Source of the DNA: Earliella scabrosa
Lineage: Eukaryota; Basidiomycota; Agaricomycetes; Polyporales; Polyporaceae
Direction of reading: 5' to 3'
NCBI GenBank assembly: GCA_022605405.1
Contig: JABYQQ010000021.1
Coordinates: forward strand, 62,001-126,000
DNA length: 64,000 bases
The notes under the pieces: model-generated
Seen by the model: the letters and a program-made list of their open reading frames with translations, nothing else
The model's database searches: none
What the model was told of the DNA's origin: nothing
Position numbers and translations under genes: made by a program
In this document: piece after piece, positions 10,888-33,058 of the stretch
How positions within the stretch are numbered: position 1 is the first letter of the stretch
How the letters are laid out: each line of letters begins with the position of its first letter

Positions 10888-10993
10888 GTACTTATCATTA
10901 TCATCGTCGTCACTGAGAAGTTGCACATGGCTGATACATCCCGGCCCCCTGTCTAATAGCAAGGATTCTTTGCTTCCGCACGACTGCCACATA
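10888..10993 (+). pseudogene. Island of host F-box gene: intron 1 and start of exon 2
   Basis: This 106-bp strip lies between the two transposons. 10888-10959 reads as an intron (GTAC... to CTAATAG); 10960-10993 is the first 34 nt of exon 2. Read across the second element to 31483 it gives GFFASARLPHNASLVRRFKC, aligned with GSFASGRLRHNAPFVREVEL in the paralogue's exon 2 (38129-38195). Confidence 0.85.
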
Positions 10994-11115
10994 CTGTACC
11001 ATTTAAATCTATTCGACCAGTCACGCGTAACCACGCGTCACTTTGGTCGAATTTTGGGCGCTTGTAACATGTCACATACCGGTTGGTCGAAACGAGCCAC
11101 GGGTCGAAATTTCCG
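10994..11115. repeat. Left terminal inverted repeat and subterminal GGTCGAA motifs
   Basis: The 27-bp terminal repeat spans 10994-11020. Inside it, TTCGACC/GGTCGAA words recur at about 11012, 11045, 11085 and 11102. The stretch 11012-11051 is an imperfect palindrome containing two ACGCGT sites. Such iterated motifs next to an end are typical of transposase-binding sites. Confidence 0.8.
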
Positions 11116-11212
11116 CAGATTTCAGCTACCAGAGCTCTCTGTAGTACCATGTAGACCTCGTTGCATCGTCCGATAGCAGAATAACATCAATACGATCCGC
11201 TCTCGGCCTCAA

Positions 11213-14200
11213 TCAGTGCTTCCAGAAGTGCTCCCCATTGTAGTGTGCCAGGTCACGCTTTACCCTCTTCCGCTTCCCCCGTCCCAACTCCTCCTCGTTC
11301 TCCGGCTCATCCACAACAGCAGCGCCCCCCTCCTCGAAGTCTAGAGACTCGGCTTGTGTTGACGGCACGAGGCGACCTGTTGATCTGACTTGCGTACCCG
11401 TGGGAGTCTTCCCACGAAGAACATGTTCAATGACGGCTTCGCAGGGTATCGCACTGTCATCCGACTCGTCCTCACCCTCATCGCTCACCTCCTCATCCTC
11501 TTGTACTGAGCTCCCGCTTGCTGGGAGGTCCTTGCTCTGATCAAACCGTGTCAGTTCATGCCACAGCTCGGGTTCTTTCTCCTTCAGCTGCCTTAGCTCC
11601 TCCCGTGCCTCGAAGCTAGTCAAGCTCTTGTAGGAAAGGTTGAAGCCGGCGGCCTCGCACTTCTCGAATGCCTGCAGGCTTGACAGTGAGTATCCGATCC
11701 TTGTTTGCTGCTTATGCTGGGTAGTCACTAACCTTCAGAACGATCTCCGCCTTGTTCAACGTGTTGTATGCCTTCCAGATCCACCCCACTGTCCGATCTC
11801 GCAGTGTACCGACGTTCTTCGCGATCGTGATCGACGGCGCTCCCTTGTCCAACTGGTCCAAGATCTCGCCAACAACGTCTTCATGGTACGACCGCTTCAA
11901 CGAATGCTTCAAGACACGCTGAATACCGACGTCACAAGCCTGGAGAACAGGAGTGCAGCCTGCAGGGACGAAGTGGAGGAGGATGTTCGTGTGTTTGGTG
12001 CGCATCCATGTCCGGAACTCTTCAGAGCGATGTACTGACCAGACGTCGATCTGCCAGATGGCTTTCTGTGTCGGAGGCAGTGGGGGAACGGCTTCCCGAC
12101 GCATCTGGTCGAAGTACGGGGCGATGATGTCGTCGACCAGGGCCTGCATGGTGCGTTGAGTCGACCAATACGACGAACGTGTGCCATACTCATAGCGTAT
12201 GCCAGCTTTGTGGGTCTCCTCATAATGATCGGCGGTCTTCTTGGGTGTTGACTGATAGGTTCCACCCATGTAGACCGCCTGAAAAGGCAGGAGGACCCCA
12301 TTGTTGGCGACGGATACGCACAGCGTGATGGCGCGCTTCTCTTCAGTTCCGACGACGGAGACCTGCTTGCTACCCACCGGAGCCCAGGTAAGCTTGCTCC
12401 CCTGCACATACACCATATTCGTCTGATCGGTGTTGACATAGAGAGACGACGGGATGTCGTACTCTTTGATGTCGTGGACAATACGAAGGATGGCCTTCCG
12501 ACACTGGGCTTCCCAATCGGTAGGTAGCTTGTGCGCATCCCGGGTGGCACGACGCTCTGACCAGTGCAGATGCTCACGCAGGAAGTAGCGCAAGAACGAG
12601 TCGGAGCAGCGGAAGCGGCCGCCGTCAGGAGCCGATCTCTCGAAGACATCAGGCGACATCCGCAAGATTGTGGCTGTAACGACACCACGGATTGAAACCA
12701 ACGTCAGCGGAGCTCCGGCCTCTCGCAGCACTTCGAGGCGTCGTGTGATGGCTTCGACAACGTCTGGATAGGCGGCCAGCACCCCTTTACGACCACCCTG
12801 CCCTCCTTGGATGTAGCCCTTGCGTGCCATCTCCAGGGCGCGCTGTGACCAACACGGGCGAGGACCAGTGCGGTCGATCCAACCTTCGATGGTTGTGTGG
12901 CTGAGCATGTGGTACGTGTTCCAGTCGATGGTTTCCAGAACTGCTTTGATGCGACGTGACGACATGGCAGGGCCAACTGATGGGTGCTTCGCCGCGTTCT
13001 CGATTTTCGGCCAGAGCAAGGGGCCATGCCAGTTGACGTATCTAGCTGGCTGCGCTTCGCGCTGTCGCTTTCGTCCTTGAGGCTTCTTGGACGAGTCGTG
13101 GATTGCTAACGCGATCTGACGCTTCGGGCGGGAACTCTCCGCAAGCTCCGTTCGGGCACGTTTGTTTGGAGGACCGGATACGTCACTGAGCATATCTTGA
13201 AGCTGCTTCGGAGCAGGAGCCTTTGTGCCATCCTGATTCCTCTCTCCCCGGGCGATCTCTTCCTGACGTCGCTTCTCACGATGTCTCCGCTGACGTTCGT
13301 TCTGGGAGGCCTTGCGTCGCTCACCCTCACGTAGCTTCAACCGCACGGTGGAGTCCTTCTCCTGCTCTCTCCATGTGGCGACTTCATCGTCTGCTCGGTG
13401 CAGCTGGGCGGAGTACTGCTCGGGTGTCGCCTGGCTGAAGAACTTCATAAGTCCGTTCTTACTGTTGTTGACGAGCGCTCGCCGGATGGCTGACGTCATG
13501 ACAATTTTTCCGTTCTTCAAGGTGCCAGGCTCGGACGACTCTTCGGAGGAGGCAGACGGTTGTGGTGGGGTAGAGTTCTGGATAGGGAAAGCAGACGCGG
13601 GCGGAGACGCTGCATGTACGTCATCCAGCATGTCTTCAGGCACTGACATTGACGATGAGGTTCTATCACTAGCCACAGAGCGTGCAGGCGATGCTGAGCG
13701 CGAGGAGTAGAGATCCGTTCCAGGCACAGAGGTCGCATACGAAGAAGACGCGGCCTCGGAGGGGTCTGGGGACACGTCCCGCTGTACAGCTTTGCCTTTT
13801 GCATCGGGTGATAGGGACAGACTGTCCGATGCGAGTGGAGACGGCCACCGGAACGTGAATTGAGCATCCGTGCTGATGATGTCGAAGCTCTGGGAATGGT
13901 ACGTCAGGATTCGGACTTATTGCTGGCTGATGAGAGTCGCTTACATGATCTCGATGGCGCTGCACCACGTCAATGAACATGGACAGTCTCTGGTGGTCGA
14001 TCTCGTGCTTGCTAGGGCCCGAGAGGGGATGGGTGTCAGGGAGAAGATGGTGCGCTAGGGCGTTCCAACTCAAGATTCCACACGAAAACTCATCCTCTTG
14101 TTGTGTGATCGCCAGGGCTCCCCACTCGAATTGTTTGTCCGAGTGCCGCTGGATCCACCAGTTCAAGACATCTACGACGTGCTGGTCTGGACTGTGACCA

Positions 14201-15078
14201 AGCGAGTCCCCGTACAAGATCTTCGCGCGGTCGAACATGACGACAACCGCAATCCAGTGCGTATTCCTGAGATTGACAAGGAGTCCCAACTCTGTTCGCT
14301 CTCCAGCCTCGAGAGCTTCTCCGATGCCACGAAGTCTTGCGTAGACGCGGTCCGCCTTGTACGATGTTGGATCACCGGCACGATAGGCTGATTCGAGATG
14401 TTTCCAGATGTAAGTGTTCTCGACTACCGCGAAGAGGCCTTCTGGCTGACGGAGCAGGTTTGTTCGCAGGATGTCGAGCATCTGATTTTCGTGGACGTCG
14501 CTGAGCCAGGCGTGTGAGGTGTACGTGACGAGACTGCTTGTGAGCTCGCTATTGGAGAAACCGGAAAGGGGGTAGGAGTAAGGAAGGGTTGCGAGGGCCA
14601 CAAGAGCTTGATCAACAAGCTGGTGAGTCGTCTTCGGTACATTGGGATGCCATGCCTGTCTCCGCTGATGCAACCATCCCTCCGCCTGTAGCCACTTGGT
14701 ATAGGCTCCATCCCCCACCCGTAAACTGATCACCTCCATCCAGTACGTGATGACCCACAGCGGGAGGCGCAACCTCGTCTTCTGGGGAACGTGGATTGGC
14801 GAGACAGAGGCCTCCTGATCCGGTATGTTGGCAGTATGGTGCATCATCTTGACGAGCTTGCTGACCGTGTCCAGGCCTGGCGTCGGAATCTTGCAGATGA
14901 CAGCCGGGTCATCTGTGGTTGCTGGTTGTTGCATACATATGAACTGCGCTATGTCGACCTCACGGACAGCGGTGGCTGCGATGGTAGGTAGGGGGAACCG
15001 GAGCAGCGAGAGGACAGAGATATTCGGGCGGGGAAGGATTTTGTCCCGTAGTGCTGTAGGAATTTGCATCGACGTCAT
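11213..15078 (-). CDS. Ulp1-like cysteine protease fused to pogo-like DDE transposase
   Basis: Three exons (15078-13945, 13889-11733, 11671-11213; introns of 55 and 61 nt) join in frame to about 1249 aa. I chose ATG 15078. Residues around 270-370 show an Ulp1/C48 catalytic order: His in NTHWIAVVV, Asp in YGDSLG, Gln/Cys in ITQQEDEFSCGILSW. The middle has a Ser-rich and basic linker and an HTH-like region (TTIEGWIDRTG). Then comes a DDE_1 domain with Asp in VNTDQTNMVYV, Asp in IDVWSVHRSEEF and Asp in TPVLQACDVGIQ. The C-terminus is acidic with GKRKRVKR. All catalytic residues are present, so it is predicted to mobilise the 20.5-kb element; the protease may process SUMO or the transposase itself (inference). 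Confidence 0.85.
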
Positions 15079-16064
15079 GGCAGATGGTGTAGGCAAATGG
15101 CATAGAGAACTGGGCAGTAGCGAGTCGCGACGACTCGAAGAGCTGTACAGGGGCCAAATCGCATGTGCAACTCTTTCTCCTTACAAATTTGCGTGATTCA
15201 ATGACTGCGTGACAGTGTACTTATTGATGTTCTTAGTAGCGATGCTAGAGACGTGAAGTACACTATAGTAAGCAATCTAAGTATCCGAGAAAACCATGTC
15301 ACAGCGCCTATGCGGGTTGGTCGAATATTGACCAATGTCACTGGTCACACACAATCTTATGACGGGATTCATTGGACTTAATTACATGACGAAGACCTCA
15401 CACCGATGTAGGGCATCGATGACAATCATGAACAAACATTGTAGTTAGATGCAGAACATTGCACACAATTGCTGACCAATACCATCAAATTTTGTATTCG
15501 CCTCCTGCACAGCACTCCACCCATGCGAATGTTATCTGATGCCATCGCTCAGAGCATGGCTTCAATCTGTGCTTTTCTTTGCGAAACTTTGCAACGATCT
15601 GCCTGAAGTCTTGCACCGGTGTTCGTGCCTTGAAGCGCCCGTCTGCACGAGGTGTGGCACCGCCACCGCGCTCCCGCCAACTCTGCGCTCTCGAACTTGT
15701 GCACTCTTGCTACGACTTGCTTCGGCGAGTACCATCTGCCGACCCCTCCGCTTGATCTGCCTATGATTCAGCCGACTCTGTTCCTAGTCCGAATGGCCGA
15801 CGTCCACCTCTTGTCCTTCGCCAAGGCAATCTCGACGACTTGTGCACAAATTTCTCCGGCCCGCCCCAACAGCCCTCGGATTTATAAGTCCTCTCGTCCG
15901 CCTCCCTCCTCCTCCAGCTCTAGCCCCTCCGCCTTTTCCATTCGCAGTCCGTCCCCGCGCTTGCGGGACTTGCTCTCGTAGGCTCTGGTCTACACTCGGG
16001 CTTCCTTAGCCGTCCCTCTTCGCGCTCTGCACAGCGTGCGCGTCATCCTCTCTCACTCCCCTCG
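15079..16064. promoter_or_regulatory. Divergent intergenic region with internal transposon-end-like motifs
   Basis: AT-rich spacer between the transposase and the HECT-like gene. It holds a near-palindrome TTGGTCGAATATTGACCAA at 15317-15335 carrying the same GGTCGAA word as the element ends, followed by sequence weakly resembling the inner right end. A 9-bp stem (15214-15222/15256-15264) is also present. It may be an operator for the transposase or a relic end. No gene is seen. Confidence 0.5.
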
Positions 16065-19000
16065 ATGCCCGCGTTCGACATCCGCGCACTCTGCGTTGCC
16101 CCAGCGTGCGTCGGCAGCTCCCATGGCGCCTGTGGAGGGTTCATCGTCATCAGCAATGGTGAAGCGCGCTATGTGAGTACCTCGTTCATACCTTCCAAGG
16201 CTCCCGGCCAACGCCGATGATCCCCATCCAGATCCCGATCGAAGCCTCAGAGGCATGCTCCTCCTGTTCGCATGCGTGGTACTCGCACACGATCACTCCG
16301 CGCGAGATTGCAGCACAGCCCATCGTCTACCAGCGCGGCGGCTGTGGATACTCTGCATGTGGCGGGTTTCATTCAGTAAGCAGCAGTCACGGTTGGGGCC
16401 CCTCCATGTGTTCACTTCTTCGCCCTACAGGATCTGCCCCACAACGCCTGGGATCTCGAGAGCGTGTGCGCGTGCAGCATGGTCCTCCGCGTTCACGAGT
16501 TCTCACCCTATCTGGTTCAAAACGGACGCGGGTAAGAGACTTCCATTGAGGCATGTGCGTATATGCTAACCGGCACTCAGCGCTGGTCTGGTCTATGAAG
16601 TACCGTTGATACCTTCACGCACTACCGGCGTCGCGCAACTCCCACCTCTGGCCGGGCTACAGGTGGACCCCCATGCCCCACTTAGGGCCCCTCCCTTTCA
16701 CGGTCCTGGCGCCTCTATGGGACCGCCTGTCGCATCGACTCCGCCAATTGCTGCGTACACAGGCTTGCGCCCGGCTGAAGAAGGCTCCACGAACGCTCGT
16801 CGCATGGCCAGCGCCGAACGCGCTCGTCAGAGTACAGCGTCCAGCTCCAGAAGCACTAACGCGCAGCGCACTCGCGGCGCACTGCCCCTTCAAGGTCAAG
16901 CTGAGGGCTCGCCGACCTATGTCATTCCTTCTTCGTCTTCCTATGCTTCATCAAGTCGGCCTCAGGCCGGACCGTCGTCGGCATCGCATGCCTCGTCAAG
17001 TCGCCCTCAGGCAGGACTGTCGTCGGCGATCGCGCAGGTGGCTATGATATCGTTTCTCTTTGCTCTATATCCCTGGCGTGTAAGTACACCTGCGCCCTGT
17101 CCCGGTGTCTTCACTAAGCGGCCCATCGTTATCAGGTCAGAGCTCTTCCGCGGCGCCGCGGGCACGGCACCAGGGGAAACTACCCTGAGACTGAATTTGC
17201 CTGGTCGAGTGCTGAGTATACGATCGTTGTTGGCTCACTGTATGACTGGTGTCTCGTGTTCGTCATCGAACTTCCTGCGACCGGATCAGTTTGGCGCGAC
17301 CTCGGCAAGAAGGTCGTAGACCACCTCACGGGCCTTGGTTACTCCTTTCCTGGCTATGACCCATCGACTCCGCTGGACTCTCCCACTCAACTTCCGTTTG
17401 TTCTGCTGAGCACCTCTCCTCGTTCTCGTGCTGTTGTTAAGGTCCATGCTCCGTACGATGATCTCACACCCGCTTCTTTCACCGCAGCGGCACTGCAGGA
17501 CAAACGCTTCACTTGCGTACCCTATCCCCTCGAGAATGAACATACACATCGGGGATTGCCCTACATCAAGCTCGGTGAGTCCATCTCGTCTCCATCGATG
17601 AGCTGTTCCGTGACTCACCGCGCGTTCGCGCCAGCCTGTCGCGATGGTGATCTCCTCGGCTCCTTGGATCGCCGCGAGCCCATCCGTTACAAGGCTCCTG
17701 GTCTTCGCAATTGGACGTCGATCCTGCAGCGCGCAGCTCAACACCACTGCATTCCTCAACGCATGTGGGCAGTGCTACCGGGGTTTGAAGCGGCATGTCT
17801 CCCAGATTGCCCACAGACAGACGCGCCAGAAGTTGAACCCGTTCCCGCCCCGGCAGCGGTCCCCCCTCCTGCTCAACAACAATCCTTCGGCGGTGAGTGC
17901 GATCCGTTGCAAGACGACGAACACGACGTCTCGTCCGACTCCGATGGGGTGGCCTCCCCGCGCACATTCCTCCATGAATTATGCGAACCCGGCTCGTCCG
18001 CACGCTCTCCTGTCCGACCAGTCGCTTCGGGTAGCCGGTCCCTTGGCCCCCAGCCGTCACGGCTGTCGCCGTTGGGAGACGTGAGTGTTGCGCGGCTTGT
18101 TGCTGTCGTTTGTGTTGGCTCAACACCGCTGTCGCAGTCGAATGCCCGTGGGGTCACGCGGCGCTTCACCGGTCGGATGTCGACTGGCAGTAGGGCACCC
18201 CCCGCTCGCGCACGCATTGGAGGTCCGACGGGCAGCAGTAGTGCAAGCTCTGTATGTGTTCATCCATACCGTCACGATCCTCGTCTTGCATGACTCACTC
18301 GCCTTCCAAACAGTCATATCGCGCGCAAAGTCCGGCAGGGCTGCCCGGACCCTGCAGCCTTGACACGCGCGGCGATCATGAATCGCCCGACCAAAATAGC
18401 GACAGCGGGTCCGACGTCGAAGGGCGCCCAGCCATCAGACAGCGCACGGATTCGCGGGTCATGGATCCAGCGAACCGACTGCCACATCAGGTATGTCTCA
18501 TGCGTCGCTGCCATGTCCCGACGCCTGATATATAGTTCGGCCGGCATCATGTAGATTTTCCGACCGCTACGCAGCCTCCGGGGTAAAGCGTTACAAGCGT
18601 GGGCGGAACGCGCAATTTATTCTGCCCCCGCTCCTCCCCCAAACGTCCCCCCGCCGCGCTTAGTGGCGGCCAACTTGACGTTGGCGGCCGAGGTCCTTCT
18701 GTTCCTCATCCATTGGAACTTTGAGCACGTCGCTCTCACGTATGCCCCCTCTGACTGTCTGGTTTTCCGACAAGCCTTGCTATCCCGCTTCGGCAATGGT
18801 CCCGAATGCGAGCTGACATCGCTCTCCCAACTCATCCGTTGTACACGCCCGGGGTTGAATGTCCGCGTGTATGTACTCTGTCTGGTTCCTCCTGTGAGCA
18901 GATCACTCATTACTGACGTATCGGGCCACCGTCACAGGGGCGAAGCTGTCGGGTTGGGCGCGATGCGTAGCGTGCTCCGTCGGGCCGTGGAAATCACACT

Positions 19001-20381
19001 TGCCGACAAGTCTCTCTGGCAGGCGCGTGGCCGGTACTACACGATCCGGTGGCACGTCGGAGGGGCTCAAGGGTTGCGTTCGCGCCAAGTGGCGATGAAG
19101 ACCTCTGGCTTCCTCGCGCTGCTTCACATGGTCGTCCTGCACACCGCCCCCGACCCCATCTCGCCTTGGGTCCTACGCTACGCTATCGAGGGCTTGAATG
19201 GCGCATGCGTCATCGATCACGCGTTCATGCAGCTCATAGACCCTGATCTGTACAAGACGCTGCGCCCATGGCGCCTTCACGATCGTGGCAGCGCCTTGCC
19301 CGAGGATCCTCTGAATGGCCTGTTCCAACTCTTGACAGCAGCAGATGTAGATGTGAGTCGCCTTGGTCTGGCGTTCGATCTCTACTCATTCGTTGTTTGT
19401 TAGCTGCAGGCGGTGTCTTCTCCGCCTTGCGTCGAGGAGCTGCTGTGGATAGAGCTCGCGCTCGTGGCCGCTAGCGCGTTTGGGATCGCGAAAGTGGACA
19501 CTAACGCTGACATCAACGCCTTCACGGATGGCATGGCGTGTGCGTTGGCCCCTGGTAGTCTGTTGGGGGTGAGTAGTACTCGTACTCGATATTCTCCAGC
19601 CTTGACTTGACCTATTACACCTACAGTCGTTCCGGGGCCGAACGCGCGACTTCATCGCGGCTATGTGCAGCAAACGTGTAAGTGCGGTCTCCGAGGTCGT
19701 CAAGTTGCTCGACTACGTTACACAAAGCAGCGAGCCTCCTCCGGACGACGAGGACGATTCCTCATCTGAGGCCTCTGAGGCCTCTGCCGACGAATCAGAC
19801 ACCGAAAATGTGGATCCAGCGCAGTCGATGAAGTTGCGACCTGAAGAGTGGGACCAGATCTACCAACAGGATTTCCAGGCAAGGCTCGAGTGCTACCTCG
19901 CTGGAGTGGGCCACCCGAACCATCCTGACGTGCGCGCTGCGGTTGGAGAAGAGCAGTTCACAGCAGATGAAGGGGATCCGTTGCTCCGCGCGCGGCTTTT
20001 GCTGCAAATGGTGACGGGATCGGATCTTCTACCTCCCGAACCTGACGCGACGCTGATGGTGAGCGGTCTGACACGTTGTCATCTAGTCGCTGATCTCATA
20101 GGCACAGTTCGCCTTCCATCATATAGGCATGCGCGAGGCCCCCAAGAGTAAACGCGCCGTCATCCCAATTCCCGCCGCAGTAAGTGTGTTGCTTGCGCGT
20201 CGCCACCATGTATCTCACGAGTCTCCGCAAACAGGTAAATGTGCGCGCGTGCTTCTACACATGCACCGTTACGTGTGATGCTGGCTTGCGCAACCTGCTC
20301 CGCGAGCCTCTGCCCGCGATGTCGTTCCAAGCATGGTTCCATGGTGCAGTTCTTGCCCCGGAGGAGTTTAACCAGCTGTAG
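16065..20381 (+). CDS. HECT-like multi-exon protein with N-terminal Cys-rich module (transposon cargo)
   Basis: ATG 16065 (MPAFDIRALCVAPACVG). Early exons 16065-16172, 16232-16375, 16431-16531 and 16581 to about 17079 encode paired cysteine motifs (CSSCSHAWYSH; GGCGYSACGGF; VCACS), probably zinc-binding. A Ser-rich linker with an imperfect tandem repeat (SSRPQAG twice) follows. Middle exons give a conserved-looking region (PATGSVWRDLGKKVVDHL). Later exons give GLGAMRSVLRRAV, then RYYTIRWHVGGAQGL, then an acidic tract and LLRARLLLQMVTGSDLLP. The final exon has CFYTCTVT before LRNLLREPLP, resembling the HECT C-lobe around the catalytic Cys. I recognise the overall pattern from agaric HECT-annotated proteins, but the assignment rests mainly on that C-terminus. 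It ends 205 bp from the convergent TET/JBP gene. Confidence 0.65.
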
Positions 20382-20586
20382 GCTGTGCATGGCCGTGTCG
20401 GTTCTCACCTGTATTACGCTCAGCACCTGTCCGTCAATGCAATATGTCCCCGCGTATCCACACTCTTGATTTGCTCGCGCACGATTTGGGCTCCCTATTT
20501 CCTAGCGTGTTGTGAAGACGCTGAATTACTTCGTGTTGGTATCGTAAATTTTGCGACGTCTGAGCCAGGTACATGCCGTGATCGCC

Positions 20587-22284
20587 TCAAGCAACGCTGG
20601 GTGGCGCCGCGCATAGGTCCAGCAATTCGTTCCACGTCGACCACGTCTTCAGCCCTTCCTTCCATCGCTCTTCGGGAGTCTGGCTCGCCTGCATGCCCGC
20701 CGCGTCAAAGCTTTTCTGGGATTGGAGGCCGCATTCCACCCATCGAAAGAGCCCCCCGGCTGTGTACTGGGTAAGCGAGTAGCGGGTCTCGCCAGGCTGG
20801 ATGGCAGCGTTCGAGTGCGCGAGGATGGCTGAGGGTATCAAAATGGTTGCCCCCGGTGGAAACTCGAATGCAATACCCAGATCCCATAGGATGAGGTGCC
20901 CTCCTTGCTTGTAGTCGTACGTCCCGAAAGCAGTGATTGCGCACCATCCCCAGGGAACGTTGAGGTGGTCCGTATGACGGCTTGTGACGGTGTTCGGGCC
21001 TAGATTCAGCGTCATGCATGCGAAGTGGTTGCCGTGGAAGTTACGTCGCAGCCGGGAGTCTTGCTGGAGCAGGACGTCCAGAGTGAGGCCATAGCGACAG
21101 AACATGCGCGGCGCATACATCTTCATGCAGTCTAAAAGGGCTGTCGTCAGCCGCTCCAGCCCAGCAAGTTGCTTACAGGTAGGGTGCGACGTACGGCTAC
21201 CGAAGTTCGCAATGCGATGCACGGCCTCGTGTGACAGAATCGCGTCCACCACATCCATGTTCTGCGGAGCGTGAGACAGGTTCTTCACAACCTGAGAGCA
21301 ATGGGGTGAATTGGGGCTTATGGCAGGGAGCGAAACGCACGCACCGTTTGACCTCCCCCAAAGGACACGCCAATGGAAACCGAGCGATACTCGCCTCGGC
21401 GGTTGGCTTTCGCGTTCGGGTTGAATGCATACGCCCCGCGAATCTCCTCGCAGATCTGGCTCATAGTGTTGACGTCGCGGTCGTACCGCTCGCACGTAGG
21501 GCGTCCCGCCGCGATAACGGGGATGAGACCTTCCGGCGTTACTACGGGACGGGTATCGCTGCAGTCAGGCCGTTAGGAGAGAGGCAGTAAGTGAGAAATG
21601 ACTGAGGAGCGGTACTCACCGGCCGTCCCAATGAACGACCTGGATGCCTAGTCGCTCAAGATCTTCTAGCCGTATTGATGCGCGGTCTTCAGAGCCAGCG
21701 GGCATCCGTGCACCAACGTGAGCTGTCGAAGCGACGGGGACGTCCTTCATAGACGTATCCAGGTCAACAACGACTATGCCGCGCCCAGGATCTGGCTCTC
21801 CTGACTCTCGATCTCCTCGGTCCAGGGAGCCGCTGGCCTGAGCATGTCGTATGGCGCCCTGGAACTTGGTCCAAGCCTGCGGTTTGACGTTTGGGCGAAG
21901 GCCCGAAGGGTCGCGTTCGTAGGGCGCCGTGCCGGAGCGACGGGCCTTGCGCATTGCCCGCCGATGCTTCTTGTGGAACTGTTCCCTACTCATGCCATCC
22001 TCGGCCTTCTCAGCATGGACTCTGGGCAGCGTGGTCGCGATAGCCGCTGCCGTGAGGTTCGGATGTCGCTTCGATGCGGATCCAAATAACGTCGGCGCAC
22101 GTTCAGCCTTATCTACTGACGCGAGTGTGGCTGGGAGCAAGATAGAGCCCTCTGTGGGCGCGTCTTCCTCGTCGTCATCGGACTCGTCAAGTTGGTTGCA
22201 CGCCGCCTCCTCGTCCAACTGCGTGATCCTCTGAGTCGCTGCCTGGACGTCAAAGTTGACCAGGACCGCTTCTCCTAAGCTCAT
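20587..22284 (-). CDS. TET/JBP-type 2-oxoglutarate/Fe(II) dioxygenase (transposon cargo)
   Basis: Exons 22284-21620, 21558-21345 and 21291-20587 join in frame to 527 aa from ATG 22284. The N-terminus is acidic then basic (SREQFHKKHRRAMRKARRSG). The catalytic domain has the fungal TET/JBP signature: IPVIAAGRP, SIGVSFGGGQ, the metal-binding HxD in RHTDHLNVPWGWCAITAFG, then GGHLILWDLGIAFEFPPGA, distal His in ILAHSNAAI, the 2-oxoglutarate Arg in ETRYSLTQYTAGGLFRW. All key residues are present, so it is predicted to oxidise 5-methylcytosine or thymine-like bases in nuclear DNA. Basidiomycete TET/JBP genes are known to be expanded in association with transposons. Upstream exons with a Cys cluster (CCECHQGTQ, about 22460-22700) may extend the N-terminus. 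Confidence 0.9.
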
Positions 22285-22786
22285 TTCGTACAGTCCAAAC
22301 TCCCGCCCACTTCGCGTCTGAGTTCGTCGGGAACGGTAAGCGGGGGGCTCTCTAATGGCCGGTAGAGCTTCTCACCTTTTTCCAAGGGGAGGGCCGACGC
22401 CTGAGCCGAGATTGAGTGGGGATTGAGGCGGACGATGGGGCTCAAAAGAACTCACCTGCCTGCATCTTGCGCAGCGCGCGTCCAGAGGTTGGAGCGACTG
22501 GCGTCGACGGCGCGTCAGTGACCTTCGGAAGACAAGGCGGCCCACACGGCCCACTCCCATCCAGACCGAGGGCCGGCCGTACGACAGTAATCGTGCAGCC
22601 CGCGAACCCGCACTCGCGTGCAGACCCAAAGCCCGCACGCTGGGTACCTTGATGACACTCACAGCACGTCGAGGTCGTGCCACCCTCAGCTGGCAAAGGC
22701 ACCGCCTGCCTGATGCCCCACCTAACTCACACCCACGCGAACGCCTCTGCAGCAAGCTAAACCTCGAACACCCGGAGCCAATGTAC

Positions 22787-23013
22787 GCGAAGAGACGTTC
22801 GCTTCCAGGCACAGGGTGCGCGCCGTGCTAGTCGCCCATCCTTCGCGCACACGGACTCCGTGACGTACTACCGAGGCTGGCTTGCTCATACCGCATCTAC
22901 GAACGCAGACTGAGGCGGAGGCTTTCAATGCAGAGGCCACCCTGGGCGTAGGCAGGCAACGGATGCGAAGAGACGTTCGCTTCCAGGCACAGGGTGCGCG
23001 CCGTGCTAGTCGC
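22787..23013. repeat. 49-bp perfect direct repeat, two copies 178 bp apart
   Basis: 22787-22835 and 22965-23013 are identical (beginning GCGAAGAGACGTTCGCTTCC). Similarity continues for about 15 further bases. The unit contains the partial palindrome GCGAAGAGACGTTCGC. A protein-binding array or a duplicated coding segment are both possible. Confidence 0.9.
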
Positions 23014-23559
23014 TCGTCCTTCGCACACGTTGACAGGGAGAGGCGCACCAGACAGGCTACGGCATAGTTGGAACTGAAGACAGGGCCGAAAGGGCGGCGG
23101 CAAAACGTCGGCTACTCACCAGAACGCAGACTTCGGGCAGGATGTAGGGCGGCGGACAGCAGAGTTGCAACGTCACCCGCAGAGACTCGCGCCCTGCTGG
23201 CATTGAATCGCGTATAAGCCTGCCGTCGCGGTAAGCGACGGCCTCGCTAGCGAGGTCCGTGCGTCCCTTCGTATTTCAGCTAATCAAACATGTATACAGT
23301 CATAGAGTCTGACCTGCAGGTAGCGAATGACCTTGAAACGCCTGTTTTGCTTCTGTGGCACTGAAATGGCTGAGACTTACAATGACGTTACGTCCTCTCG
23401 GGGCGCTGCCGGCATCGACGTCATATGTCTATAACAGACCAGTGAAATTGCCTCTTCGGCCCGCAGTTAGACTTTGTCGTAGTATTGCTCCCGTTCCCAC
23501 CCTCTAACCTCTACCTGCGTGTGTTTTACTAGCACCGCGTCGCCTCCGTCAGTCGCCCC

Positions 23560-23631
23560 GGGGATACATCATCATCACGCCGATGGCCCATGGCGCTTCA
23601 AGCTTCATCGGCGTGACGATGATGTATCCCC
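23560..23631. repeat. Near-perfect inverted repeat (26-bp arms, 20-nt loop)
   Basis: Left arm 23560-23585 (GGGGATACATCATCATCACG...) pairs with 23606-23631 with one mismatch; the loop is 23586-23605. There are no long T-runs, so it is not a simple terminator. It could be a small fold-back element, a replication or recombination structure, or a remnant end of another transposon. Confidence 0.9.
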
Positions 23632-23838
23632 TCGGGAAAGCACGCTGAGCGAACACACAGGCAAGCCATCTATGGTATAATGACGATTCCGAGCTACTGA
23701 CATCAGTGGTAGCCTCATAGATATCCAGTTAGGGCATGAAGGTCGAACGACGTCCCTCAGCGCCCGTGCCAAGCCACATACACGTTCCGTTCGCCACGTC
23801 GAGGCGCCGAAAGCTTCATCTTGCCCACCTCCACCATC

Positions 23839-24455
23839 ATGGACGCCCGTCTTGATTCCTCGACGCCCCGCCACTTTACATGGGTCCCGGAGGCCCTATA
23901 CGACGCGCCCCCACCTAGTGGCACTGCAAGACCGTGGCCCAAGACCGAGATATGGCTCGCGGCAGGGTGTGAGTCGCTGCAGAACGGACGTGAGTGGCCG
24001 GTGTATGAGATACGCGTTTTGGGACCTCGCCCGGGCCACGGGGAGTTGATTCTGGCCAAGGTGAGTAGAAGTCCGTTGTTTCGCCCGGCATCCATCCGCA
24101 CATCGCAACTGTGCAGCTTCCCCTCCCGACCAGCGTCTTGTTTGTTGAAGGCAACGTCCTCCAATACCGGCGGTGGACCAGGGCGATTCAAGGGCGCGAC
24201 TATGAGTTCCCTGAGCTGCAGTCTGCGCAAGCCCACGCCTTGCGAGACATCACGCGATACCTGCGCGTCCTATCCCTACAAGACCGAGTCGACGTCACAG
24301 CAACCCGCTGGGAGGAGTTTAGGTCACGCATGCTGCACGGCTTCATCATGGGGCGCTGCGTGCGCGGCGAAGAACACCTCAAGGACGTTGCATCATGGCT
24401 GCGCGTCACCGTACCCGTAGGTGACCTACTCTCTTCAACACGCCCTGCTCGCTGA
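23839..24455 (+). CDS. Unknown protein of the large transposon
   Basis: ATG 23839. Exon 1 is 23839-24060 (74 codons, ending LILAK before GTGAGT). A 56-nt intron ends in GTGCAG. Exon 2, 24117-24455, stays in frame, giving about 186 aa. Visible features are an aromatic-rich start (FTWVPEALYD), an EIWLAAG segment and a helical C-terminal half (WEEFRSRMLHGFIMGR). I recognise no family. The splice signals and sustained composition argue that it is real. Further exons downstream are possible because a GTAGGT lies at 24418. Confidence 0.5.
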
Positions 24456-25404
24456 GGGGCCCAAACTAGGAAATATATCAATGACGGCGCCAGGCAGGGC
24501 GGGGTCGTACGTCGCCTGACCAAGCCGACACGGGGGGTTGGGTGGGGCGGCGATATACAACGATGGGTAGTACGTTCCTATACCATTCCAGAGACGCCGC
24601 GACGGCGTGACGGGCGTCCACGGAGGCCGAAGGCGGTTAGGTGACTGAATACCCATTGCTTGCGCTCGTTAACGATCGCTCGACGGACCGCGTGGTCAAG
24701 GAAACTGCGGAGTGCGAAAGATGATGCTGAGGCACCGATGGCGATCGATTTTTGTGCGGAGAGTGACCTGTGCGTCATGGATGTCGTCCAAGCGCGCCGC
24801 ACGCTCCGTGTGCCCACTCGCAACCCTTCGTACTGAGGCCGCTACTAGTACTGCTCGATGAAGCCGAGCTCATCAAATGTGAGCTGCACCAAGCCCGCGG
24901 TAGAGCTCACCTACGTTCCCCGGTATTGTCCGCATTCCAAAAGACTTCTTGATGGACGTTCTGATCGCAGCCAATCGAGATCCAACACTTAGCCACCTCC
25001 TGGAAGGTCCATCTGCGCATTTTTAAGGTTTCAGTCGCAACGCCACACATCTGATCGAGTACTCGCCCAGAGTTCGTTCCTCGGCATACGGTAGGTCGTT
25101 CAAAGTGAGCTTGCAACGGACAGGCAGACAGCATGTGCTGTCTGCCTCAATACGACGCTGTTGGGAGACTGAGGGCTTGCCTGTGAGTACCCCATGCGAC
25201 AATGGCTACAGCAAGAGACTCACGAGGGACAGCTTAAAGTCAACAGCCGAACGATCGAACCGTCGTTCTGATTAATTGGGCCTGGGCGAAACCTGACTGC
25301 GTCGGTCGCGAAGGCCCCTTCGACGTTGGCGCAGCCCCCGCCCCTACCTCCTGCCGTCATCTTCCACCGGCGACTGCTCCTGCTTCATCCTTTCCCAACT
25401 ACCA
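24456..25404. other. No supported gene
   Basis: Spacer inside the large element. Open frames here are short and lack convincing splice context or recognisable motifs. Confidence 0.5.
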
Positions 25405-26990
25405 ATGGAAGACGGGCTCGTCCGACGTGCCCGTCTGACCACAGAGCGACTACAGGATCGAGCCGCGAGGGCTGCGCGTCGTCAACAGCGATTCGACGAA
25501 CCCGGAGAGCCAGGACAGGGACCCCCGCACATCGAACGCGCCCACGATGCGACGAACTTGCCCTCGACCGACGACCCAGCCAGAACTACGCGGGTCGAAA
25601 CTATGGAAATGTGGCACGCCGTTGAAGAGCGCCGCACCGTCGAGCATTTCGCCGATGAAGCGGGCCCCTTGGCCCCAGCGGGGTACCACGCCGAGAGAGA
25701 GAGGGACGAGATGCCAGCTTGTGCGTTGAAGAGACTCGCACGACTGGCGGAACGGGCTGACGTCTGTCCCCCAGCCGTACATGCCATCAACAGCTCCGTG
25801 CCCATGACGGACGTGGAGATACGCAGGGCGCCACTCATCGAGCTCGTCAACGCCCACGGCGTCGAAACACGCATGAATGCAGGTGAGCAGTTCGCGAGCT
25901 CACTCCTGCAGGCAACCTCAACGCACGTCAAATAGGTCAGCAGCCAGAACCAGGCTATCCGGCTCGTCAAGACTCTGGGAGGTTCATTCGCCCAACCCAG
26001 AACCTGACGGCCGGTCACTGGCACGCGGTCGCTGAACAGGTAAGTCCTTGCTTTGCTTAAGCTTGGGGTGCGTGCCATCAACACCCCCTGGCAGCGCGCG
26101 GAGGTCATTCGTACCCAGGAGGGAATCAACATCCACGCGGCGGGTCCGCAAGATCGCCAGGCTAGGGAGCGCGACTTCAATCGAGCCAACGGACTGTCGG
26201 GGACGCGGGGTGTGTATCAGCCCTCCTGTATCAGCATGTCACTCTATTGACCGCGTGTGGGGCCACAGGACACGCCCCCGCTGCTCCAGTTCCAATCCCC
26301 GAAGAAGAGGAGCGCCCTGTCACCCCCGAGGGCACCCTCAGTTCCCCTAACGCTCATACGCACACCGCGCCCACTGAACCACGCCCGCTCGCCACGGCGC
26401 CACGTCGCGCTCAGCCTCTGCCCATCGACCAGCGAGTAGTCAACTACCTCGCCCGACAATGGCCCGCCAGAATGGAGGAGGCTCGCATCGTTGCCAATCT
26501 GCCCGCCCCCTTTGGTCCAGGATATCGCGACATCCGCCGCGTTAGGATCATAGGCGGCGTTTTCCGCGACCTGGGCATTGGAACTCGCAAGCAAGATCCG
26601 AAGGAATGCGACGTGAACGATGAGGGCAGGTACCTGACCGTGACCACCCAAGATGTCATGATCACGTTCGGCATTCTTCCGGTCACTTACGGAAGCCTGC
26701 GTTCCCGCCTCGACCTCATGAACGCAATGTACCTCTGGCTGGATGAGAATCGCGGCGCGTGGGATGCGGCAGGGCCCTCGTCAGAGGCGCACATGTTCTG
26801 GTCGGCCATGCGAGTGTTCTTCGCGCCCGAACGCCTGCCCAGCACACTCACGGGAGATATTCCGGCAGCGGTACGCGACGCAATCCAGAAGGGCACGTGG
26901 CACTGGTATAAAGTAGCGAAGCGCATCCATACTTCCCTAGGCATGTTGCGGGACACCGTTCCTGCGCCACACGTGCTTGTCGACAACTAG
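25405..26990 (+). CDS. Unknown protein of the large transposon (about 26.9-kb stop)
   Basis: ATG 25405 opens an Arg/Glu-rich helical N-terminus (RLQDRAARAARRQQRFDEPG). Three introns are suggested (about 25880-25933, 26040-26062, 26211-26269; the second is unusually short). The last exon gives IPEEEERPVTPEG, a Pro/Thr linker, and a folded-looking block (RIIGGVFRDLGIGTR ... RYLTVTTQDVMITFGILP ... HWYKVAKRIH) ending in LVDN. I do not recognise the family. Position between the dioxygenase and the integrase suggests element cargo. Splice sites in the middle are uncertain. Confidence 0.5.
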
Positions 26991-27222
26991 AGCCTGAGCA
27001 ACCTGTAATGCATTTCGTTGAGCATGCGACGTCTGCTATGACTGACAGAGTGCGAGCGCGGACTCTGTGAGGAACTTACAGAGTGATTGTCAACACGCGT
27101 GGACCGTGCCCACCACCCGGAACTTGCAAAGTGAAACAACGAGGTGCGCGTGAGCGAATGCGTCAACCATCCTGAAGCCCGCCGTTGGGTGCAATGTAGC
27201 TGAGCGCCGCAGAGAGACTCAC

Positions 27223-27645
27223 CTAGGCTTCACGCTCGCCCAACCTGCCCCGTGCAGGGAGAGACGCTACGCCATGAGGTGCGAGCGACGCGTCTACCCC
27301 GACTATGCGTTCCTCGACCATCTGCATCCGTGACGATCGGTGGTGCTCTTCACTCGTCTTGCGACGCTCCTCAAGCTGTCGGATCTGGGACTCTTCTTCA
27401 GGAGGAACGGGAGCACTTGCCTGCAGCTGCTGCTCCAGCTCGTGACACCTTTCCTCCAACCGTTGGATCTGCAGCGCCGTCGAGCGCACGACATGGTCCT
27501 TGACTGCCCGAAGGCGGGCGGTTTCCTGGATCTCCATTGGTACGCGGACCTTGTAAAACTTTTTCCACCGAGCACGTTCCTGGGAGTTGCCAGTCGTCGC
27601 CGCCTGCGTCGAAGCCCACGCCGCGTACTCTAAGTCGGTGTGCAT
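27223..27645 (-). CDS. Short coiled-coil protein
   Basis: A single exon of 140 codons from ATG 27645 (MHTDLEYAAWAS). The central part is strongly helical with heptad-like spacing (LQIQRLEERCHELEQQLQAS, then QIRQLEERRK), predicting a coiled coil, so it may dimerise or act as a DNA-binding partner. More 5' coding sequence is possible: a Pro/Ser-rich open frame continues upstream of the chosen Met. No enzymatic motif is seen. Confidence 0.45.
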   Translation of the reverse strand: MHTDLEYAAWASTQAATTGNSQERARWKKFYKVRVPMEIQETARLRAVKDHVVRSTALQIQRLEERCHELEQQLQASAPVPPEEESQIRQLEERRKTSEEHHRSSRMQMVEERIVGVDASLAPHGVASLPARGRLGEREA

Positions 27646-27950
27646 ATCGAAGGGCGGAGCAGAGGGAGAAGTCGAGCCCGATGTAGCGGGTGTTGGAGAG
27701 CTGTCCTCGGAGCCAGTGGGCGCGGGTGGTTGGGATGGATCCCCGGTTGGACTGCCCGTGGCTGTTTCGGATGGAGGAATATGGACTGTACAAGGAGTGG
27801 CAGCGCACAAGTAACCCCGAGACGCCCGATGTTGCGCCCGCCATACGTCTGCGCGCCTCTTGGCGTGCAAGACCGCGTCCCGGAATTGGCGCTGGAGAAT
27901 CAACTCTCCACCTGACTGTCTTCCCGCCTGCCACGTCGCCACCGCTCGCA

Positions 27951-28770
27951 ATGCTCGCGCCCACCCGTCTGTGCACCCGGCTTCCGCACGTTCTCGACTA
28001 CACCCACCTCTCCGACGACGCTTGGCCCGAATGGGACGCCGGCAAGCAGGAGTGGAGCCTGCCTCCAGGGGCCACGCGTCAATGGGATCGCCAATGGCGG
28101 ATGTGGTGCACTTACTGGCCCTCGACTCCTCCCCAGAAGCCCCGTCCTCGTCTAAGCCTGACGACAGACCCCAACTGGCCCGTCGGTGAGGTCTACGACC
28201 GGGTAGAGGAGATATGCGTTGAGGTTGCGAGGCCACTATTCAAGAGTGAGGGGGATGTCGAGCCCAGGGGCTGGGAGAGCGCTTTGGTGAGTACGCCCGT
28301 TGAGTGTCCCGAAGACCGCCTCGCGAATCGTCCGCAGACGCCATTCCCAAGAGATCGCGCAGCAGCAGCAGCCTGGACGATCGCGTATCCTGAGGGCATG
28401 TGCGAGGAGGACCTCCCAGAGGACCTTGCCGTGCTTGCCGCTGCCCTGCGCGACGTGATGCAGTACCTGGCTCACACCGTGGACGAGTTCGACGAGGACA
28501 TGTTGGAGGACGACTGGGTTCTTGTACACGAGGAGGGCACCCAGCTCATGAACATGTTCGGCTTGCGGGGTCCGGAGCGACTAGTGATTCTCCTGGACAC
28601 CTTGCGTAATATGCTACCGGTACGTCGCCTGTCTCTCGACCGCTCGTGCACGCTGACGGACAGTCTAGCGCGGTATCATCCAAAAGTGGCCCGACCGCTA
28701 CACCGCGGGAGCTGCTGAAGAGCGAGAGGTTTGGAGGTGCTCGGTGCAACGGCGGACCTACGAGCTCTGA
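27951..28770 (+). CDS. Unknown acidic protein of the large transposon
   Basis: ATG 27951. Exon 1 is 27951-28286 (112 codons). An intron starting GTGAGTACG ends at CCGCAG near 28336; exon 2 reaches about 28620, and after a short intron a final exon stops at 28770. It has Trp-rich segments (WDRQWRMWCTYW) and an acidic helical block (VDEFDEDMLEDDWVLVHEEG). No known family is recognised. It is convergent with the integrase gene (184 bp between stops). Good splice context and consistent frame use support a real gene. Confidence 0.5.
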
Positions 28771-28954
28771 GCGCAGCCCATGTGTGTATTGAGTGGTTGG
28801 TTATGTACTGCCGGTCGCCGTCTGTCCAAAGCCTGAGATGGTGTGTGGTTGAACGTCGATCGCACGCGCAGCACTCAAGCTTACAACACAACTTTGCATC
28901 ATGAGAGACGATTATCGATACCAACCGTATGTACATGTAAGTGCAACGTCAAGC

Positions 28955-30767
28955 TCAAAACCACGGTCGACAAAGATGGAGAGCGGTCGACCACACGAGG
29001 CGGCGCGCAAGCATATCACGGCTGGTGACGTCGCATTGTTGGGCAAGCTGGTGCTCAAGCCACAGGACTTGGGCGACGGAGAGGGGGCAGCGCGGCGGGT
29101 CGCATGTCACCGAAGACAGCTGCAAGGGTGTGCTGTCGGCAAGGGGCTGGTCGTCGGCGGGCCCGGTGACGACTGGGTTATGTTCAAAATGATGACGCAT
29201 CAGGTTAGCATCCCCGAGGACGTCCCAGTCCACGCCGTAGTTGCTCAGGTCGTCTACGACATCCTCCTGAGGCGCGATTGGGTCGATGCCCCGCGGGCCA
29301 TGCCGAACCATGCCGAACAGAAACAACTCGCGTGGACTAGCCCGAGGTTCGCCGTTGATGTGGATGAGATGAGCGTTCCAGGTCTCGGCCCACTCGGTGG
29401 CATCCTGGTTGATGGCAGGGAGAAACAAATGGTGGACGAGCCAGATGTGGGGTGCGTAGTCCGGATCGAGCCCATAGCTGTGTTCGAGGTCCAAGAAGAA
29501 GACCTTCCACTTGCCGCCGAAACCACAGGTGACGTCGAACCAGAGGCGCTCAATCCGTGTGTTATGGACGCTTCTGACATTGCAGGGGAGGTAGGTACGC
29601 GGTACACAAAGAATGGCGGTGGAGAATTCTCACCGGCCCCATATGTACGACCCCCGGTTCAACCCACGCGAGCGCTCCATCCACTCAGCAACTCTGACAT
29701 TCTCCGTTCCGTGGTCGCCACGCACGCGGCTGGGCACGCCATGACTGCGAGTGGCATCGAGGAAAAGGTCGAGGACGGTGTCGGCGCGGTTGTTGGTGTG
29801 GACTCGGATGCCAGTGACGTAGCGTGAGTGGCCGTCGACGAAACCGTGTATGACCATCTTCCAGCGGATCAACCCTGTGGAGGTTAGAGTTCATGAGTTG
29901 CGCGTCCGTCGGATCAAATTGAAGAAGAGTAGTACATACCATGTTGACCATCGTGGTGCCAAAGGGAGTTCGGGCCGGGGACCTGATACTTCTTACGCAG
30001 CACGCGACGCCGTCCGAAAGAGGGCGGGGCTCCACGGATGCGGAGGTAGGCGCGTCGAATACGAGAGTCCGGTACGCGATGCCCGCGAGAGGCGAGGTGG
30101 CCGGCGATCATGACGCGCCCGAAGTCAGGGAACACGGTGAGGATGTGGCGGACTTCCTCGTCAAGCTGGTCGTCTGAGAGCGTGGAGACCGGGGCCGTGA
30201 CCGTGGTATGAACACGATTGACCGTCCCGTCGGCTTGAATGACGGGTCGGAAGACGGGAGGGCCAGGTTGAGCAAGGCCAAGGCGGAGGGCTTCACGACG
30301 GACGGTGCGTGGACAGCAGTGAAGCAGTCGCGCGATGCGAACAGGCCCACGCATCTCGAGCGCATACTGGAGGAACGTACGGTCGATGACTTTGGGCGGT
30401 CGACCGCGGCGACCTGTGTGGAGAGTCTGGATAACAGGCAGGGCGGGACCATCGGCGGGGTCCATGGATTGGTGGCAGGCGGCGTCGAGATCTGCGATCA
30501 TGCGAGCGAGACTGTCCTGCAATGTACCGAACTCGAGAGGAGGGATGAGACGAAGGTTCTGCAGGCCACATGTTACGACTCCAGACGACGGCAAAGAAAG
30601 CGTAATCGAGTTAGACGAACCTGGCCCGAAGCAGTGCGAAGAGACAGCGCGCGCCGTCGCACTTCCTGAAGACGAGGCGCGTCCCCGACCTGTGTGCGAA
30701 GGGCTACGTTGACATCCCGGAGGAGCTCCGCATAGGCGGCACGGATGTTCTCGAGCTGGGTCGACAT
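28955..30767 (-). CDS. Integrase-core DDE protein (retroviral-integrase-like fold)
   Basis: Exons 30767-30621, 30558-29940, 29874-29634 and 29573-28955 join in frame to about 541 aa. The N-terminal half has a [11 protein letters not shown] basic turn and an HTH-like segment ([20 protein letters not shown]). A second HTH-like region (RRMIAGHL-type; here [18 protein letters not shown]) follows. The catalytic core shows the three acidic residues: Asp in LWHHDGQHG, Asp in VRGDHGTEN and Glu in [18 protein letters not shown]. It belongs to the integrase-core proteins common in Agaricomycetes. Intactness implies an active or recently active enzyme. Why an element with its own pogo-like transposase also carries this is unclear: it may be cargo, or the mark of a nested element. 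Confidence 0.85.
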
Positions 30768-31453
30768 GGGTGCGATGGAGGTGGACGAGCAAGGAGAACA
30801 GGAGGGAGCCGCGGGCGGAGGGCGGGGAGGGCGGCGGTCAGGTCAAAGTTTTCCAAAGTTCAGGCTGCGGGTAGCCCTCGGCCGACACAAATGTTGGGGA
30901 TGAGTCATACTGACGCTAAGCCTCTTGGGAGGCAGTGCCGAGAGCTCGCATGACTCAGAACATAGTCCTTGGCGTGATTGGGGGAGGAGCGGCCGGAGAC
31001 GGGGCCGCGACAAGTGCGCGAAAACGTTCGCAAGTGGGGAGCTCGCGTGGTGAGGAGAAGGGGCTGAACATATGCGTGACGAAGGGTTTGACGACAAATG
31101 CGGTAGTTTGTCACGCCTAACTGCACATGTGTCAGCCGGGAGTTGATATGCATGAGGGTGGCAAATGCATGCAAATGTCAATGTTTGCGGCGCAAAGATT
31201 TAGGCCTGCAGATGTCCTGTGGCGATGCACCTGAGAAGGATTGATAGTCAAGGGAGTGCAATTGTTGTCAATTACTGACAGAGGTGTGCAAAGCGAGGCC
31301 GGCATTTGCGGGGAACTATAACAATAGGCAAGGGATGACCAAAGCTATCAATTGCGAGCTAAAAAGATAGCCACGTTAATAAAGTCCTATAAACCGTCTC
31401 ATACAATCTGGTCGAATATGTTCATTCATATGGCGATGTCACGGGTCACAGGC
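30768..31453. other. Right subterminal region of the large transposon
   Basis: Contains the integrase promoter, then AT-richer sequence with no gene. A further GGTCGAATAT copy lies at about 31410-31419, close to the right inverted end. Confidence 0.6.
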
Positions 31454-31480
31454 CTGGTCGAATAGATTTAAATGGTACAG
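31454..31480. repeat. Right terminal inverted repeat of the 20.5-kb element
   Basis: Exact reverse complement of 10994-11020 (CTGGTCGAATAGATTTAAAT...), directly followed by the TA duplicate at 31481-31482. Confidence 0.95.
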
Positions 31481-33058
31481 TAATGCATCGCTTGTGCGAC
31501 GCTTCAAGTGCACAGGTGGGTGAACCCATCACTTGCTGTCAGCAGACGTTATACCATTGAGTGACTCTGGTACTACTAGGTGCTTTGCGGCAACAGAATG
31601 ACCCGACTGTAGAGGTCTTTATTGGACGACTCATCGCAGCAATAGCGTCCTGGCCCAACGTACAAACCGTCGCATTGAACTTCCACCATTCCCACGCGAG
31701 CATACTTCCAGCGGTATTGACTACCATGCTCAACCTTTCCTCGCTGAAGCATCTTGACATCAACGGCGCCGTCGTGAACGAACAGCATGCTTCTATCTTG
31801 GTCAAGCTCGGGGGGCTCGAAAAGGCCCAGATCTACTCGCCTAGCAAGGCTCTTGTACATGTGCTGCCGCAGTGGCTGGGTAATGATTCGAGGTCGCCAA
31901 CGATGCGACAACTCCACTTGACGGTATGCTAGTCTCCACACAACCGTCTCGGGAATATTCTATGCTAACGAACGGATTGCTCGTCCCACTAGGGCGACTG
32001 CCAAGTTCACTTGACTGAAGACGTTCTGGAGGCAATCGTGCCCGCTCTGAAGGAGACGACCGCGTTCACGCTCGGGGTGCTCGCCGCAAGCGGTCGGCTT
32101 CTGGACGATTCCGCGCTATCATCCTTGGCTCGCCTTCCCCAGCTCCGAACACTCTCGTTCCACTATCAAATGGTACGCTTGCCCTCTCAACGGCCCCCTC
32201 ACGCTTCATGCTGACAACATTCACGATACGTCTCTCATAGATATTGAACCCGCGATCCCTCTATCGCTTCCAGCACCTGCGCTCCCTCACGGTGGTGATC
32301 CATCAAGACCCAGAGACAACTGCCACATCTGTCGCACTGTACAGCTTCGTGTGCAACCTCGTCAGACACGCACCTCTGGAATCGCTCGCGCTGATCCCAG
32401 CTTATAAACTCGTTAGGGGAAGAGGCCCGTCTCCACACGTGAACCCGCTTCTGTCGTCGCTATGTGCACGCCACGCTCCGCGGCTGCGCGTACTCAAGAT
32501 GCCGTTCTTTTACGTCGGAAGGGCTGCTCTGAAGAACTTCTGCCGTGCATGCGCGCGGCTCGAAGAGATCGCGGTGACAGTCTCTAGAGACACGCTGGTA
32601 AGTCTCGCCGAGCGTTCGTAGTCCGGCGCATCGTCACGGTTGCTGATGCGCGCACCCGGGCCCTCTTGATGTAGGACGACTTCTGGTCGTACGCGCCAAA
32701 CATGCGCTGCCTTCGCTCGGTCGAGCTCTGGATCGCCAACTCGCACTTGCCGGCGGTTGTGATCCCCCAGGAGTTTGCGGAGAGGCTGCTGAACGAGTCG
32801 ACGGACATACGCTCTGTCATGGTCGACGGACGGCGTTTTCAGGTGAGCGAACAACGCGTCCGAGTCATCTATGAGCGTTGAGCGGGCCATTGATCATGAA
32901 CTGAGGATGCATCGAAATCATGGCAGGGAACGCGCGTCCGTGGCTCGGACGGCACCTTGCAGCCTCTGGTGGTGGAGAAGTTCGCGTCTCTGGAAGAACA
33001 GTTTCTGCGGGTTCAAGCTCCGCCTTTCCGTATCAAACATCCGTACGAATGGGATTGA
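31481..33058 (+). pseudogene. F-box/LRR-like protein, 3' part of transposon-split gene
   Basis: 31483-31515 is the last 33 nt of exon 2 (donor GTGGGT at 31516), followed by exons 31580-31923, 31993-32172, 32241-32597, 32675-32842 and 32927-33058 (stop TGA). All are open, phases match, and they align with the paralogue at 37840-39550 (LVRHAPLESLALIP / VVRHAPLESLTVRH; RVLKMPFFYVGRAALKNFCR / RVLWMPMCYVGRKALAEFCR). LRR-like repeats would bind the substrate of an SCF ligase. Joined to the fragments at 3519-3725 and 10960-10993, the coding sequence is 1455 nt. No stop or frameshift has accumulated, so disruption is recent or another allele is intact. Confidence 0.85.

Follow-up and report, generated by a model that had tools for sequence, protein, structure and literature searches.

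Does the 20.5-kb stretch of the wood-decaying polypore Earliella scabrosa that is bounded by perfect inverted ends, and that carries two transposase genes, a TET/JBP dioxygenase gene and a HECT-like gene, represent one transposon or two? It lies in a window of 64,000 nucleotides, the whole stretch of DNA analysed here (C21:62001-126000, accession JABYQQ010000021.1 in assembly GCA_022605405.1), and was compared with the genome of 51.7 Mb in 48 contigs, which are denoted C1, C4 and so on. Positions refer to the window unless a contig is given. The evidence favours a nested pair, in which a 16,046-bp element of the IS3EU type, carrying the TET and HECT genes, sits inside an Ulp1-pogo element of about 4.4 kb; the probability of this reading is put at roughly 93%. 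A striking but wrong 20.5-kb unit is thus replaced by a better-defined inner element.

Two sets of ends and two duplications

The outer boundaries are those of the first-pass annotation, which had taken everything between them for a single transposon. Inverted repeats of 27 bp at 10994..11020 (plus strand) and 31454..31480 (minus strand) are flanked by TA target-site duplications at 10992..10993 and 31481..31482. These ends proved to be as perfect as described: with the TA included, the arms (10992-11020 and 31454-31482) are complementary at 29/29 positions, and the TA copies are 20,487 bp apart. The empty site that the annotation had suggested seeking has a counterpart on the same contig, where the joined outer flanks align to a related unoccupied sequence (C21:19201-19600) with a score of 138; the occupied junctions score 88 and 62.

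A genome search with the terminal sequences, also suggested there, gave 32 further left-end and 17 right-end matches. From these derive 16 places at which a left and a right end are paired no more than 320 bp apart, forming miniature relatives 270-282 bp long; those in the fetched loci are all TA-flanked (7/7). Because the 16 short elements pair both ends, the outer left and right ends belong to one family. A healed-end test on these miniature inverted-repeat elements was weak or null. Six other elements, of about 155-165 bp, have two pogo-family left ends face to face (C24:608399-608553, C2:2580423-2580578, C4:2542964-2543119, C17:607856-608020, C1:1868897-1869055 and C6:1221779-1221935).

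A second pair of ends, at 15358..31403, delimits 16,046 bp with the termini TATGA..TCATA. It is flanked by two copies of the hexamer CAATCT (15352..15357 and 31404..31409), and the outer right-end sequence resumes past 31409. The inverted repeats are imperfect, the left one (15358..15387, plus strand) agreeing with the right one (31374..31403, minus strand) at 20/30 bases. The insertion point is the right end of the pogo element, about 275 bp upstream of the start of its transposase, and removal of the insert with one copy of the duplication leaves 4,435 bp. When inner ends were sought automatically at the outset, with two mismatches allowed, nothing convincing emerged; the ends were first spotted by reading the flanks and were afterwards rescanned under fixed rules (14/20 matching). 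That scan found 15358-31403 as the sole match in the window from 9 to 34 kb and zero matches in the two other parts of the window tested, while 3/300 Markov sequences used as a control gave one match.

The inner boundaries have support beyond that scan. A copy located through its integrase, C14:277967-296072 (18,106 bp), is collinear with the window from 16 to 30.9 kb; its ends are of the same type, and its duplication, CACTTC, differs. It contains the integrase, the HECT gene and the further conserved coding sequence; as far as searched it lacks the TET gene, and nothing in it matches the pogo region. These observations decide against a single pogo-type transposon natively carrying TET, HECT and integrase as cargo. 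Such a unit would explain why perfect outer ends with a TA duplication enclose everything and why there is a related empty site, but it conflicts with the inner ends and their 6-bp duplication and with the pogo-free C14 copy, on which grounds it was rejected; the Ulp1-DDE gene, moreover, has no second copy. It is now barely credible. The annotation had itself named what would overturn it. The genes from 15.4 to 31 kb do occupy a separate element with its own ends and duplication, but an uninterrupted Ulp1-DDE copy between the outer ends was not found, the DDE frame having a single match in the genome.

The nested pair would have arisen in two steps. A pogo-type element measuring about 4.4 kb, whose single protein combines an Ulp1-like peptidase with a DDE transposase, would have inserted at a TA, and the IS3EU-type element would later have entered its right end, duplicating CAATCT. 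The resulting 20.5-kb composite might, despite its nested origin, now be movable as one by the pogo transposase, with one transposon serving as the vehicle for another. Its outer ends are perfect, its transposase is readable in inferred exons and the miniature relatives show that such ends were mobilised. The transposase gene is single-copy, however, so that no second composite site is seen, and joint movement is considered improbable.

The outer gene (11213..15078, minus strand, ATG at 15078) is predicted to encode about 1,250 aa across inferred introns at 13944-13890 and 11732-11672, or 1,235 aa with an alternative first intron. Pfam identifies DDE_1 (E 1.7e-7) and Ulp1 C48 (E 2e-5), and the two inferred introns place the Ulp1-like peptidase before the DDE transposase. 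Pogo-type Tc1/mariner elements are characterised by a TA duplication, a DDE_1 transposase, inverted ends and miniature relatives. The outer element shares all of these features and differs in the apparent fusion of its transposase to a peptidase. Among seven database relatives of the transposase, DDE_1 is listed in 6/7 and Ulp1 in 0/7, and the fusion therefore rests on an inferred intron.

Genes of the inner element and their linkage

The inner transposase gene (28955..30767, minus strand) is modelled with four exons and 541 aa. Its integrase core matches rva_4 in Pfam (E 4.9e-63, spliced model), with D252, D309 and E344 intact and 34 residues between D309 and E344, and thus provides the rve/integrase-type DDD/E transposase of IS3EU. 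As far as the source was consulted, TA..TA termini and a 6-bp duplication are the other hallmarks of that superfamily (PMC10045372). Both are present: TATGA..TCATA bounds the copies in the window and on C14, C10 and C1, and the hexamers are CAATCT in the window, CACTTC on C14, and CCGATC and GTACTT on C10 and C1. A broken relative of the inner element occupies C4:2985001-3005000, where, of the window genes, only integrase fragments are found, beside pieces of a Plavaka-type transposase. Database relatives of the integrase above the cut-off number 388; the named organisms among the best 120 of them are presumably Agaricomycetes.

The HECT-like gene (16065..20381, plus strand) has a multi-exon model of 1,112 aa in which the middle exons, 17893-18554, are uncertain. 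Pfam finds no HECT domain in it or in six homologues. A predicted model of the homologue P0003, with a mean predicted local distance difference test score (pLDDT) of 56 and ten-residue means of 50-93 from residue 400 on, retrieves HECT-type ligases in every row shown, so that the HECT fold is found on the predicted model of a homologue. The catalytic cysteine of HECT ligases lies in an HTCF motif near the C-terminus; a candidate pair, C846-F847, is invariant in 6/6 rows of alignment A2, and by eye the CF pair is retained in the window model. A search that scored the best 7,997 candidates gave at least seven relatives in six genera, presumably all polypores.

The TET/JBP gene (20587..22284, minus strand) has a four-exon model of 506 aa with H378-x-D380 .. 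H431. Its iron triad, H53, D55 and H106 in exon numbering, is invariant in 14/14 aligned exons, which represent 14/21 TET loci. The Pfam score for Tet_JBP lies below the cut-off of 34.9 bits (19.1 bits, E 7.9e-4, on the exon frame; 15.7 bits on the spliced model). With a low-confidence TET model, Foldseek returned CcTet as the best match, within its best 12 rows, VIA-align gave no TET chain among its best 50 rows, and sequence searches of the PDB gave none. Counted without gaps and without alignment to CcTET, the presumed counterparts of Gly331 and Asp337 of CcTET, the two residues that mark AG-type TETs, read N and C. The domain names of the first-pass annotation thus survive to differing degrees: DDE_1, Ulp1 and the integrase by Pfam, TET below the Pfam cut-off but with support from Foldseek, and HECT by fold but not by Pfam.

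A further coding sequence of unknown function (23839..26978, plus strand) is conserved in the C14 copy, best over 23839-24420 and 26221-26978, and has no Pfam match in the scanned part, 26166-26990. By eye, a Ganoderma relative, P0007, has a stretch similar to 26221-26978 after its HECT part. An inverted repeat of 26 nt (96%) with a loop of 20 nt lies at 23560-23631, also within the inner element. Scans for tRNA genes and Rfam families gave no match, and the sole match in an NCBIfam scan was an IS481 transposase far under the cut-off.

Linkage was counted from 17/42 HECT matches (the remaining 25 being additional exons of loci already entered), 26/26 integrase matches and 23/23 TET matches, giving 15 HECT, 25 integrase and 21 TET loci. 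An integrase locus is found no more than 30 kb away from ten of the 15 HECT loci, where uniform placement predicts 0.44, although some of the loci are near-copies (those on C16 and C17 score alike) and three HECT matches are weak (C26, C42 and C6). The convergent order seen in the window holds at nine of the ten linked loci. Further nesting is possible on C26 and C28, since HECT and integrase are 20-27 kb apart there. TET genes lie near an integrase at 4/21 loci, against 0.30 expected, and on the same strand in every case, those on C1 and C10 being copies of one family.

TET genes and their carriers

The C10 and C1 loci combine a TET gene with an integrase that is more distant, with 28% identity over 374 residues in the case of C10. 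Over 6,030 bp the two loci share 99.9% identity, and their left flanks are unrelated. The right junction of each was predicted as TCATA followed by the hexamer that precedes its left end; the predicted sequences have 19 and 17 matches genome-wide, one of each lying no more than 16 kb downstream. So bounded, the elements measure 15,484 and 15,546 bp, the sequence read covering all but about 7.8 kb of the C10 element and 9.3 kb of the C1 element, and their 6-bp duplications differ. As inverted repeats, the two C10 ends agree at 38/40 positions, and the C10 and C1 copies show no difference in their final 200 bases. The right ends were found at the predicted junctions, so that two families of IS3EU-type elements bounded by duplications contain TET genes. 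The near identity of the C10 and C1 copies over the 6 kb compared points to a recently mobile family, which would be suited to testing the effect of TET.

These copies also bear on the suggestion that unrelated insertions have trapped host TET and HECT genes, which would then not be functional transposon genes. Trapping would allow for the finding that, as far as searched, the C14 copy has no TET gene and the C10 element no HECT gene. The linkage of HECT and of TET to the integrase and the presence of TET within bounded copies of two families are set against this, and trapping appears most implausible.

The three nearest relatives of the window TET, 72.5-73.7% identical over the catalytic exon, lie 3.2-3.6 kb from matches to KDZ transposases; no KDZ match is listed inside the window element. 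A tree was built from 20/23 TET matches, omitting two pieces of included loci and a short fragment (C19:601799); its KDZ labels were assigned by eye from tables, as were the distances to KDZ, and carrier labels are distance-based except for the duplication-bounded copies. The window TET clusters with the three KDZ-linked TETs (support 99/94), and the IS3EU-linked TETs of C10, C1 and C6 form a group with two KDZ-linked sequences (98/99). On this tree at least two changes of the IS3EU label are required, which would need the TET carrier to have changed at least twice between KDZ and IS3EU, in a direction that is not settled. The TET gene thus seems to be an acquired cassette whose carrier has switched between the two superfamilies, and a single genome would show such changes.

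Two 75-bp repeats, 91% identical, lie upstream of the window TET gene (22776-22850 and 22954-23028, within 22776..23028). Segments of 52-56 bp from them recur upstream of the three KDZ-linked TET genes at 85-87% identity, whereas coding DNA reaches only 67-74%. The repeats are possibly regulatory and part of the TET cassette.

Eight TET loci form a clade of their own (C7:475898, C4:952449, C14:392493, C29:84331, C1:99656, C11:1567984, C12:1400985 and C19:120305). They have no KDZ transposase match within 5 kb and no integrase locus within 15 kb, the C19 locus having a KDZ match about 9 kb off. As to Plavaka as their carrier, the sole match in the vicinity of these loci is a weak one some 7 kb from C4:952449.

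Known relatives, proposed action and surroundings

The following comparisons draw on the consulted parts of the papers cited. TET-bearing IS3EU elements are known from rust fungi and Tuber, where TET is flanked by the transposase and by an alpha-kinase gene of opposite orientation (Kojima 2025, PMC12730594). The same source reports only TET-bearing Kyakuja from Polyporales and, as far as it was consulted, no TET-bearing IS3EU from mushrooms. It describes no transmission of AG-type TET between superfamilies, though transfer within Agaricomycotina is thought likely, and it proposes TET in such elements as a counter-silencing enzyme. The inner element resembles the rust and Tuber elements in its IS3EU-type transposase, TA..TA termini, 6-bp duplication and the position of TET between the transposase and an opposite-facing accessory gene. 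It differs in its host, a polypore, in its termini (TATGA versus TAYGG; PMC12730594) and in its TET, which is of the HxD type and has KDZ-linked TETs from this genome as its nearest relatives. The accessory gene appears to be HECT-like rather than an alpha-kinase; no alpha-kinase was found in the window pieces scanned with Pfam, which covered part of the exons, and the HECT-like gene occupies that position. TET-bearing IS3EU-type elements would thereby extend to mushroom-forming fungi.

Kyakuja/KDZ elements with TET share with the inner element the nearest TET relatives and the upstream segment of 52-56 bp, but the inner transposase, ends and duplication are IS3EU-like. Styx of Zymoseptoria is likewise IS3EU-related, with extra genes and 6-bp duplications, but the words HECT and ubiquitin appear nowhere in its main text and the consulted part of its description includes no TET gene (PMC10853768). 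No relevant paper on HECT with IS3EU or DNA transposons was found in the open-licence literature, and no description of a HECT ligase as transposon cargo turned up there.

The inner element, with its integrase-type transposase, its TET gene in the same orientation and its HECT-like gene facing both, may act against host silencing. The integrase would move it by cut and paste, TET would oxidise methylated cytosine over its copies and so weaken silencing, and the HECT protein might ubiquitinate a host silencing factor or other host factor, or the transposition complex. More speculatively, these elements would represent a mushroom IS3EU lineage with a two-enzyme anti-silencing kit, in which TET erases DNA methylation, HECT, in the slot of the rust alpha-kinase, eliminates or modifies a silencing factor of the host, and TET is a cassette traded between superfamilies; taken as a whole, this proposal is tentative and rather unlikely to be right.

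A third type of transposon adjoins the outer element, since two matches to a Plavaka transposase (best E 1.7e-89) lie immediately to its left, at 7051-8069. To the right, the window from 36500 to 58700 contains several families of direct and inverted repeats, 60-86% alike, with a spacing of mostly 1.6 to 10.8 kb between direct copies; these are probably a gene family.
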